A stretch of DNA of 64,000 nucleotides from Arthonia radiata (lineage: Eukaryota > Ascomycota > Arthoniomycetes > Arthoniales > Arthoniaceae). Below the pieces are notes generated by a model. That model was not told where the DNA came from and did not search any database. It worked only from the letters and a program-made list of their open reading frames with translations. The stretch covers positions 868,001 through 932,000 of the forward strand of contig PSQN01000004.1 in the NCBI GenBank assembly GCA_002989075.1. Direction: 5' to 3'. Within the stretch, counting starts at the first letter, position 1, and each line of letters opens with the position of its first letter. The position numbers and the translations under genes were made by a program. Of this stretch, positions 38,278-49,474 are shown in pieces.

Positions 38278-41200
38278 TCAAGACACAGAATACTCTCCCA
38301 CCCAATCCACAATCTGCTGCACCTCCCTATCAATCACCGCTTTGGCGCCTGCATTCACATCACCATTGCGCGTCACTGTAGTTTTATGTCAGCACGGATC
38401 TGTGTGATCGCACATTTCGGCCCTCATGGGTTTGCTCTTCGACAGCAGCGGCAACCCAGAGTCAGCCTCGCCAGCAGCAAAACACGCCAAAGCGGGCAGC
38501 ACCCGCTATAGCCGCCGCCATGCGACCGTACGGTCTGGAAAGATGATCTCTTCAAACCGCATGGCGGCGGTGCGCAAATCCGCTTTCATCGCTCAAGACC
38601 GGACGCTGCTCAAAAACTCGAGAAGGAACTCACCCATATCGCTTCCATGAAACCCGCCCGGGACGACATTCACAGGCACTTGCGCGGTACTCTGCAGCGG
38701 CCCGCCCGGTCTGGAGTCACTGCTCGTGCTGGCCTAGAAACAAGACGTCAACCAGCATAGCCTCTTCTGGAGTCCATCCATGCTTGAACCGAAGCGATTT
38801 CGGGCAGCGCCACCGCGTTGCCTGCCAAGCAGTACATTTGGAGGTACAAAACGGAATACGTGGATGCTCCAAGGCTTACCTCACGCCACGGATCAAACTC
38901 GCCATTCGTGTAGATCAGGCGCGTTGTATTGGTGATATCCCAGCCTAGGCAAAAGTTAACAAATGTATTCACAGCCGCTACGATGATCGCTTGAGCCTGG
39001 AAGAAGGGTGCAAAAAGACTCGCGCCGGCCCTTGGACATCACAGTGAACTGGCTGGCGCAGATTAGTGAATGTAAGAAAAGCTGGGACATACCGCCAGTA
39101 TAGGCATTTACGCCAGCTTCGTTGAGACCGCGATTGTACCCAAACGTGAAGCCGTCCTCTGCCGGCTGGAAATAGAGGTCGCATTGGCGTTGCCAGTACT
39201 CGGGGGTCACGAGCCGAGACACGATGCTGGGCTGTCCTGCTGGCGCACCATCCTGCCAAAAGCCGAAGGGCTCGTTGCAGAGCATCCTGAGAGAAGCAGT
39301 GAGCTCAAAGATATCTGTTAGCGAGAGGCTTGAGGAATTTACCACTGCCATTGGCGATCGATGGTGTTTGTAACTGTTCTATCAGTGAACAGCGGGCTCT
39401 GAGGATTGTAGGTGTCGAAACACGAGACGTCACGGGGATCAGTAAAGTAGTCGTACGTGCTGGCGCAGAAATCCGGTATGAGGGTGTCATTGACCCACTG
39501 AAGAGAGCTGATCAGCTTGCTGCCATTTACGTTTGAGTAGCGGTACACACGACTTACTGTAGCATAACCAGCAAGCGCCTTCTCCAGTCCTACACCTTCG
39601 GCACCCGGAAGGGGCACTGTCGTGTTCGGATTAACATTCTCGATGGCATCACACCATTCGTAGAACCCATCACCGCCATAGAATTGGTTGCTTTGCCTGC
39701 GCGCTTCATGTCAGCATACGGCATACTGCGCAGCAACTGCTTCAGCGACAACGCAATCTCAAGAGCATCCATTGCAGCAGCCCCAGCGCCGAGCTGGCAG
39801 AGACCGCTACAAAAAGAAGAGAAGAACCTGGGAAACGCTGCAAGACGTACCCTAGATGCCAGCATTAGCACAATCATGCTCTAAGGACAGGAGTCAGCAT
39901 CATACAAAGCCAAGGCGCCCATTCGATGGCAGCTCCAAAGTCATCGTTATGCTCTAGCTCTCCGAGACCAAAGCTATCCTTGAGCGCTTGCTGCTCCTCT
40001 GTAGTGCCGGTTGTGAACACTGAATCGATGTGACCGATTACCAGCGAGACGTCCGTAGAGCAGTTCGTGGGCATGCCGAGCTGGACTGGGGCGAAATATG
40101 ACCTGAGTGTTTCCAGTGTCAGCATGTGGTTTCAAAAGGTCCGGAAACAAATGCTAAGAGGGCGCGCTGAGCGATGGCGCTGCTGTCAAAGAGCAGATGC
40201 ACTGTCAGCGTATCTTGAGAGCATCGAACTGTTCTCAACGCCAGAGTAGTGCTGCACTTTCGGGCTCAGGCACGCCCTGCACACGCTCTAAAGGTGCTGC
40301 TTTCCAAGAATACGGTTCCGACCAGACACAAGCTTTGATACTGCTGCCGCTGGTGAAAGCTGGAGCAACGGCAAGCTGCGAAGTACGCAGTGCTGCTACG
40401 TAGAGACTGGACAAGGGCAGCCTCGGTCAAGAGCCAGCTCATGGCCGAAACCATGTCCCAATCTTGCTTCTGATGAGCTGCGCTGGCTTAAAGGTAAGGT
40501 TCAACGTTCGAGCCTCTACCATGCTCAGGCTCGACCGAAGCCGCACCTTTGAAGAGCAGCCATACTCGTCGTGCTAGATCATTGCGATGCTGCTTTTGAG
40601 CAACTCCGCCATCTTGCCTTTCACACCACAAATTAACGTGCAAGAAGGCTGAGAGCGGACACTGACCAATAATCATACACCGCCTGCACCGGTGCACTAC
40701 TCGCAATATATGCCCAAAACGTACCTGGCTGCACAGAGGCTGTCCAGGCCGCCAGAGCACCGCTATAAGAGGCGCCCATGAGAATCCATGGAGCGACATC
40801 AGCTTTGCTAGAGCCCGTAGGATCGAAGGGTAAGTCGACGGTGTTCGCGAAGTTCGTGAGATCGGATATCGAGTTCGCAAGCGTCAGATAGCGCAAGTTC
40901 GATGTTGTGAGGTCGGCATACGGCGAGCTCTTGCCCCAGTAGCGGTGTTCAAGGACTATCACCGCAGCACCAATGCGTTGCGCGATCACGCCTGTTGTGC
41001 GGTTGACACCTGCGTCGCTTGTCAGCACGTACGCCTGTCAAGTGAAGGTCTTTGACCGCCGCCTCGGGTGCTCAGATGCTGGCGCTGCTTCCATGCGGGG
41101 TGCTAGACGGATGATAACTTATATCGCAGCTGCTCTAAGTCTCACACAGCTCGCCGCAGCTGCCCTAAGCACCCGCCTAGAGGGACACACAACCAAACTC

Positions 41201-47291: not shown

Positions 47292-49474
47292 ATGAAGCCC
47301 CACTACGAGGCTGAAGACACCAGCCCAACCACCACCCGCGAACTCTGGGGTTGGTATGCTTATGGCTTCGCTGCCGAAGTCTTCGTGGTTTGTGGCATGG
47401 GTGAGTCGAATTCTGTCCGGAACAAGGCTGAGATCTGAGCGCCTACTGTCCGCGATCATGCTCATCGATGTTAGGCTCGTTCATTCCCATCACTCTCGAG
47501 CAACTAGCCCGCGAAAGAGGTGTCCTTGCATCTGACCACGCTACGCCTTGCACCGACGTTTCGATTTCCAAACAAGGCGGCAATGCTCAATGCGTGGTGT
47601 CCATTCTCGGTGCAGAAATCAACTCTGCATCATTCGCAATGGTAAGTCTACAGCCTCCACACTGTCATTTCTGTTGTTCCTTCACGGCCTCTCAGTCATT
47701 GAAACAGAGACGCTGTCTGAATACGCCCATTCTGAAAGCTCGACGCACTCGCGTGGTGCTCTCGCAGATGCATTGTGCTGACACGTATTGTTCTAGGTCA
47801 GTGTACAGCCCTCACACCGGTTGTTGTGTTGTTTTCTGAGGGGCTTTTAGTCGTTCGCATGGGGACGATGTCTGACCAAGCCCGTTATGAAAGCAAAACA
47901 AACTCGTGTGTTTGCTCTCCAAGAACGCGTTGTGCTGACACGCAGCACTCTAGTACAGTTTTTCGATCAGCGTGATGCTTCAGGCGTTGCTGATCATCTC
48001 AATGTCGGGAGCCGCCGACCATGGCAGCTACAGAAAATCACTGCTCCTCATCTTCGCATTTCTTGGCGCTGCATTTACAATGGCATTCTTACCGGTGACA
48101 GCTGATGTATTTATCCTTGGCGCCTTTTCCGCGATTATATCCAACACGTGTTTTGGAGCCTCGTACGTGTTACTGAACTCTTTTCTACCCCTTTTGGTGA
48201 GGAGACACCCCGACGTACAACTTCAACGGCCGCCCCACATCATCAGAACCGGGCCCAGTCAAGATCAAGATGGCGACCTGCACGAGGCTGACCTCCTGGA
48301 CTCTTCAACTTCTGCACTCCTTGCCACAGATGATATAGAAGAAGACGACGGTGAAGACATGCTACCTCACGAAGACCCAAAGAAAGCGTCACAGATGACT
48401 TCGAGACTCTCAGCCAATGGTATAGGTATCGGATACATTGCGGCATTCGCTTTTCAGATTTTCGCTATGGGCCTTGTTTCTGCAATGGGTGGCACACTCT
48501 TCTCCCTGAGAGTCGTGCTCTTTTTCGTAGGCCTGTGGTGGTTTCTGTTCACGATACCAGCTGCCCTCTGGCTTCGTGACCGTCCCGGCCCACCCTTGCG
48601 GCTTGACACAGACATTGCTGGTCATCGCCGACTCTGGCTCGCGTATGTTGCACATTCTTGGAAATCCCTGGGAAAGACAATCGCGCGAGCTCGTCAACTC
48701 AAGGATGTGCTGCTGTTCTTGTGTGCTTGGTTTCTACTGAGCGACGCAATGGCCACGGTGTCCGGAACCGCAGTCCTGTTCGCCAAAACAACCCTCGAAA
48801 TGAAGCCCACAGCGCTGGCATTCATCAACGTTGTAAGTTCCCAATGTGCCGTTTGAGCTTCACATGGCTTTCGCGTCCCGCTTGCGTCCCGAGTCAAAGT
48901 TAGACACAAACCATTGACACATTCATTCCAGGTAGTCATGCTCTCTGGCGTTGGGGGCGCGTTCGCTTGGAGAATCGTCGAGCGTGCTTACGGTCTGTCC
49001 GCGATGCAGACAATTCTCACCTGTTTGGTGTTGTTCGCGACGATCCCCATTTATGCGCTGTTAGGCTTCATCGACAGCTTCCCGCTTGGCCTCAAAAATC
49101 CATGGGAGATGTATCCCGTCGCTCTGGTCTATGGGCTCGTTCTCGGAGGGCTTTCAAGCTACTGCCGAAGCGTCTTTGGCTTGCTGATCCCCCCTGGCAG
49201 CGAGGCCGCGTTCTATGCACTATACGCCATCACAGACAAGGGAAGCTCCGTCCTCGGTCCAGCAGTCGTTGGAGCGATTACAGATCGTTATGGAGAGATT
49301 AGACCGTCTTTCCTGTTTCTGACAGTGCTCATCATCACGCCAGGCTTCATTCTTGCTTGGGTCAATGTCGAGCGCGGCCGATCCGAGGGCACAAAGCTTG
49401 CAGGCGTCGTTGGCAACCACCATCGTGCGGAGGATGCTCACAATGGCTTGGACCAGCAGATCAGAATCGACTAA
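47292..49474 (+). CDS. ATG22: Atg22-type vacuolar amino acid effluxer, autophagy-related
   Basis: Four exons: 47292-47400, 47475-47641, 47954-48832, 48932-49474, giving 565 residues. The N-terminus [19 protein letters not shown] with [16 protein letters not shown] is typical of Atg22. [20 protein letters not shown] and ADHGSYRKS follow, then [19 protein letters not shown], a long acidic cytosolic loop and about eight more membrane helices (MFS-like). The final cytosolic tail is hydrophilic. The protein exports amino acids from the vacuole after autophagic breakdown. Intron 2 (312 nt) consists of two homologous tandem units (separate entries); the splice to TAC AGT TTT keeps phase and restores SFAM-YSFSISV. 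Confidence 0.95.
47642..47796 (+). repeat. Intron unit A of a tandem intron pair in ATG22
   Basis: A 155-nt unit with its own donor (gtaagtctacag), a branch-like gtgctgacac near the end, and a terminal ttctag. It is directly followed by homologous unit B. By eye alignment the two are about 65 percent identical across their length. Confidence 0.85.
47797..47953 (+). repeat. Intron unit B of a tandem intron pair in ATG22
   Basis: A 157-nt unit opening with gtcagtgtacag and closing with gtgctgacac then cactctag, the same landmarks as unit A. The coding sequence resumes at 47954. No base lies between A and B, so they are either one composite intron or two introns with a zero-length exon between them. 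Confidence 0.85.

Follow-up and report, generated by a model that had tools for sequence, protein, structure and literature searches.

Intron 2 of ATG22 in Arthonia radiata consists of two similar units lying side by side, which raises the question of whether one ancestral intron was duplicated in place or whether two elements of separate history were joined and then copied together. In the window (the whole stretch of 64,000 nt that was analysed, positions 868,001 to 932,000 of contig PSQN01000004.1), the composite intron, recognised by homology and by its genome matches, occupies 47642..47953 on the + strand and is 312 nt long. It is made of unit A (47642..47796, +; 155 nt) and unit B (47797..47953, +; 157 nt), which follow each other head to tail with no base between them, exactly as an earlier sequence-only reading had placed them. 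Unit A, an introner-like element, carries the outer donor GTAAGT and the inner acceptor CTAG; unit B, an introner-like element of a separate subclade, carries the inner donor GTCAGT and the outer acceptor CTAG; each contains a branch-like GTGCTGAC. The shared ends described in the same reading are also there, with GTGCTGACAC near the end of both units and CTAG terminating each. Its by-eye estimate of 65% identity was right about the likeness but a little low: the computed value is 72% (110 of 153 aligned positions), or 69% over the 159 columns of the global alignment with gaps, and the alignment scored 116, whereas 1000 dinucleotide shuffles of unit B averaged -2.5 (sd 10) and went no higher than 34.

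The flanking exons (47475..47641 and 47954..48832, both +, with boundaries read from the sequence) join in phase 0 (SFAM^YSFSISV), as had been claimed, with 70 and 140 aa open within 420 nt on either side; the remaining phases are less open (35/50 and 44/7 aa). On the Pfam ATG22 profile, the upstream exon covers positions 24-74 and the downstream exon positions 75-329. Since these positions are contiguous across the exons and phase 0 has the longest open frames, the whole 312 nt is intronic by homology, and on the same ground it is absent from the mature ATG22 message.

A dispersed family of introner-like elements

The genome searched was the window's own assembly (33.5 Mb, 16 contigs), in which places are given below as contig and position. 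The 312-nt composite had at least 41 matches, at least 36 of which cover about one unit or less, and the genome-wide search with each unit that had been proposed earlier returned further copies at other positions. A consensus unit of about 157 nt, which starts with GTAAGTCTACAGCC and finishes with GTGCTGACACGTAGCGCTCTAG, had at least 46 matches at no fewer than 41 sites, at least five of them pairs; units A and B are 86% and 79% identical to it. A pair share of 5 in 41 sites is the least biased estimate, since three of the stacks described below (C15:327324, C2:1497836 and the C10 array) came from junction searches. If introners are taken as full-length similar introns at many unrelated positions, in a family of five or more, these unit matches are such a family.

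Unit ends mostly coincide with splice sites. Among the 40 units that were taken for single copies and whose start was readable (a set that includes C9:2191861, later recognised as the second unit of a mixed pair), the donor is GTAAGT in 25, AG stands immediately upstream of 20, and AG is found at the model end in 31, with G as the next base after 15 of those 31. These counts upstream and downstream amount to the AG/GY insertion preference by which fungal elements are more narrowly recognised. Removal as an intron in the sense orientation is indicated by the contiguous ATG22 profile and by open frames of at least 40 aa on both sides and in one phase in 8 of the 13 stacks (the one on C7 lying outside this scoring). 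Single copies lie within open frames in 20 of 39 cases in sense and 13 of 39 in antisense, a weak contrast in which the sense count could choose among acceptors. By these sequence comparisons, the units are introner-like elements in the broad sense, and the link that the sequence-only reading had named as a possibility is borne out, with both units belonging to the dispersed family.

The stable fold reported for fungal introner-like elements has no clear counterpart here, with z scores of -0.85 for the window composite, 0.77 for unit A and 0.88 for another copy, and a weak consensus structure. The mean z of the units is -0.48 (5 of 57 below -2) and that of the consensus 0.1. The three-hairpin consensus structure pairs 82.9% of cells versus 34-46% when slid, with modest covariation; such high pairing is expected of any structure taken from the consensus.

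The window also holds a probable single intron of a second family at 38734-38879 on the - strand (GTAAGCCTTGGAGC...CTAG), apparently inside another gene.

Other pairs, stacks and an array

At least four other places match all or nearly all of the composite, at 84, 79, 75 and 74% identity. Two of them are C13:2111094-2111406 (84%, query 1-312), hosted by a gene with an ANCHR-like B-box, and C6:472044-472352 (79%, query 1-308), which is outside any open frame and whose outer acceptor is gone. Further genome matches, known by their coordinates, are C6:86624, C4:253567, C13:722934, C5:1423568 and C13:515498. The flanks of six pairs (500-1500 nt a side) gave no blastn match to each other at E 0.01, and gene duplication as the origin of the pairs in the window, at C13:2111094 and at C6:472044 was rejected on this lack of matching flanks.

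Stacking occurs repeatedly in this genome: thirteen two-unit stacks were read from the sequence, seven of the first family, three mixed and three of the second family. The first-family stacks are the window composite and those at C13:2111094, C6:472044, C13:750218, C10:1143037, C15:327324 and C2:1497836, the last with a truncated first unit. Mixed stacks lie at C9:2191861-2192157, at C3:1363492-1363802 (a first-family unit and then an abutting diverged unit of another kind, with frames of 64 and 70 aa) and at C7:402851-403135, where the first unit is cut short and which may be a stack of three. The second-family stacks are at C15:1954078 (units meeting exactly as CTAG|GTAAGT, between open stretches of 199 and 114 aa), C1:4024393 and C12:1748000. 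The iterated second-family model, whose last round went from 32 to 82 matches and mixed the families, served to locate neighbouring places, after which the sequence of each cited pair was read; the units of the C10 array are known as model matches. Since pairs of two different introner families exist, stacking needs no duplication.

The array at C10:1219250-1222121 holds 16 unit matches of two or more families, all in one orientation. Four belong to the first family and twelve to the drifted second-family model, with spacings of mostly 14-32 nt between these twelve. Its region is self-similar over 3.4 kb, adjoins DNA of 20% G+C and contains a piece that resembles an exon of aldo-keto reductases, with no Pfam match. 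The first-family units of the array score 50-88 bits, below nearly all dispersed copies.

Some looser arrangements were also seen. At C12:577266, a single introner is followed by GCGAAGTCTACAG, which is like a unit start and could be a remnant or chance. Two first-family introners in one orientation lie 89 nt apart at C4:1038497-1038896, and another two 93 nt apart at C14:267082-267442, in both cases possibly around a short exon.

Origin and removal of the composite

The sequence-only reading had taken the intron for a tandem duplication of an entire intron, and two units that stand head to tail and are 72% identical do resemble the product of a local duplication of one ancestral ATG22 intron. 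However, both have closer relatives outside the pair (84.5% for A and 86.6% for B, versus 71.9% between them), and in unit trees of 48 and 60 units (matches C6:86626, C1:2427400 and C3:1364787 left off) forcing A and B together as sisters was 48 log units worse (p-AU 0.003). On the nearest-relative identities and this sister test, local duplication is rejected; the membership of both units in a dispersed family and the relatives of the whole pair at other loci tell against it as well, and we regard it as highly improbable. The same sister test gave p 0.021 for the pair at C13:2111094 and was not significant for those at C6 (p 0.119), C13:750218 (p 0.144) and C10:1143037 (p 0.12). It is also conceivable that A-type units landed in front of B-type units separately at three loci, so that the pair never moved. 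Pairs of different families fit such independent stacking, as do the stacks at C13:750218 and C10:1143037, whose first units are 93.6% alike (10 differences) and whose second units are 72.9% alike (42 differences; Fisher 7e-7). Joint spreading of these two pairs was dropped on the 10 versus 42 differences, and from their sequences they look to have been stacked separately, although their second units as one clade were not rejected (AU p 0.292). The first units of the window, C13:2111094 and C6:472044 are in keeping with independent stacking too: they form a weak clade (75/67, or 91/81 with one single copy added) and by raw identity are not mutual nearest relatives, window A being nearest to a single copy (84.5%) and 81.9% identical to the first unit of C13:2111094.

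The second units of these three pairs form one clade with support of 99/97. With the second unit of C13:2111094 as query (at least 34 matches), the other two were found at 88 and 85%, whereas other near-full-length matches reached at most 76% among the matches listed, which argues against separate landings; for the second unit of C6 itself, a single copy (86.0%) is a closer match than either of the other second units (82.7 and 81.4%). Rare letters point the same way in the first units as well. In an alignment of 53 units, with groups named after the tree was seen, the three first units share four rare letters (reached by 1 of 3000 random triplets) and the three second units seven (0 of 3000), while the six mixed A/B triplets share 0-1 and random triplets fewer than 0.1 on average. 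In mean identity, 2.8% of random triplets are at least as similar as the three first units, and 0.7% are at least as similar as the three second units. With this evidence on both sides, we think independent stacking unlikely. The similar divergence of first and second units between the three pairs (28 v 21, 31 v 29 and 28 v 27) was dropped as evidence; it says little, since most unrelated comparisons show likeness too (13 of 15, p over 0.05). The idea that every first unit, or every second unit, belongs to one group was likewise dropped (the best tree requires 4 and 5 changes, respectively), although one origin for either set is still compatible with the starred branches.

How the pair leaves the transcript bears on how it could move. 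In the six first-family pairs with both units complete, the outer donor is GTAAGT in all six and the inner donor in two (one-sided Fisher 0.03, for copies that are not independent and three of which may share descent). The inner junction lacks GT or AG in 5 of the 13 stacks (C13:2111094, where it is GC, which can work, C6, C1, C12 and C7), an outer site is damaged in at least two (C6 and C2), and taken over all 13 stacks the inner sites show no clear excess of damage over the outer ones. At C12:1748000, the inner donor is lost (ATAAGC), with 165 and 94 aa open on the two sides; provided that the gene is intact, this stack must be removable in one step. The inner sites of C13:750218 are strong, and stepwise removal would be expected there. 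In the window, the inner junction CTAG|GTCAGT looks usable from its sequence. It retains AG and GT, and each unit has its own branch-like CTGAC, so the composite could be removed in two steps, A first and then B through a zero-length exon, as in recursive splicing. The broken inner sites of C12:1748000 and C1:4024393 and the contrast between outer and inner GTAAGT speak against this, and we give two-step removal somewhat less than an even chance; it concerns splicing only and is compatible with the other readings.

We hold it moderately probable that one introner inserted beside another and that the pair was then copied as one element. The positions of introners in this genome are biased towards AG|G. 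Where a resident introner follows an exon whose last bases are AG, the boundary reads AG|GT and would itself be a preferred site, on which a second introner could land exactly; exact abutment and the pairs from two different families support this step. The outer splice sites would then remove the pair as one intron, in line with the loss of inner sites in some pairs, including one that is flanked by long open frames. Finally, the pair of about 312 nt would have been copied as one into three or more loci whose flanks are unrelated, ATG22 among them, as the unit phylogeny and the shared rare letters indicate. The likely carrier would be the excised 312-nt RNA, acting through reverse splicing or at a repaired break. 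The ATG22 composite is thus read as probably a mobile pair of two introners, and the comparison suggests that stacked introners can spread as a single unit.

The pair may instead spread as DNA, through template switching, gap repair or a circular DNA intermediate, with arrays as the source. This concerns the carrier only and is otherwise compatible with the joining and joint copying of two introners. The 16-match array, in one orientation and beside AT-rich DNA, could seed copies of one or two units; on the other hand, the ends of copies coincide with splice sites, the AG|G bias suits a splicing-like reaction, and the low-scoring first-family units of the array are ill-suited to a recent source. 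We consider spread as DNA doubtful. Returning to the joining and joint copying of two introners, a broader and more tentative reading is that resident introners serve as landing sites (AG|GT), that arrays grow unit by unit, starting as pairs in functional genes and reaching the 16-match array, and that a pair released as one lariat is a larger mobile intron. If so, the make-up of pairs would be a record of splicing, as a pair would spread intact only when removed in one step, and introner mobility would be linked to spliced RNA.

Comparison with known systems

Fungal introner-like elements are described, as here, as full-length similar introns at many gene positions (PMC4457414), and the AG/GY insertion preference that PMC8469720 ascribes to van der Burgt et al. 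is common to them and to the present units. Collemare et al. 2015 report two introner-like elements in one gene, 145-626 bp apart (PMC4457414), whereas the units here abut exactly and have relatives as a pair elsewhere. In the DNA-transposon introners described by Gozashti et al. 2022 (PMC9860276), the splice site co-opted from the target duplication varies between copies; here both ends are conserved (25 of the 40 units have the donor GTAAGT and 31 have AG at the model end), and assignment to that type was not retained. Recursive splicing at zero-length exons, as described in PMC5126111 and PMC2773006, involves an AG|GT junction without exon bases, as here, but in long introns and in one case in an animal, while here two dispersed units are joined.

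In the open-access literature searched, mostly by listing entries, no description of introner pairs that abut, or of introner arrays, was found. The origin of new introns is an old open question, and a composite introner that moves as one, beside pairs that apparently do not, makes it possible to ask directly if excised RNA is the mobile form. The stacking of units at splice boundaries would account for long or recursive introns built from short ones, and the C10 array is a place for studying introner growth free of coding constraint.

The stwintrons are closest in behaviour. The [D1,2] sister stwintrons of Hypoxylaceae and Xylariaceae are reported to propagate (PMC8469720, PMC12403724, PMC9024468), so that there, too, a two-intron complex is copied as one into new positions (PMC12403724, PMC8469720); their removal as one intron is reported as occasional missplicing (PMC12403724). 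In structure the two differ: in the [D1,2] type, as described, the inner intron sits between G1 and U2 of the outer donor, while here whole homologous units abut. Stwintron identity was rejected for the ATG22 pair because neither unit breaks up the donor, branch point or acceptor of the other, the donor of B lying whole after the acceptor of A. PMC12403724 also remarks that intron RNA could insert within an existing intron, which is relevant to stacking. Among the systems described in these sources, none comes closer than the spread of [D1,2] stwintrons in Xylariales.
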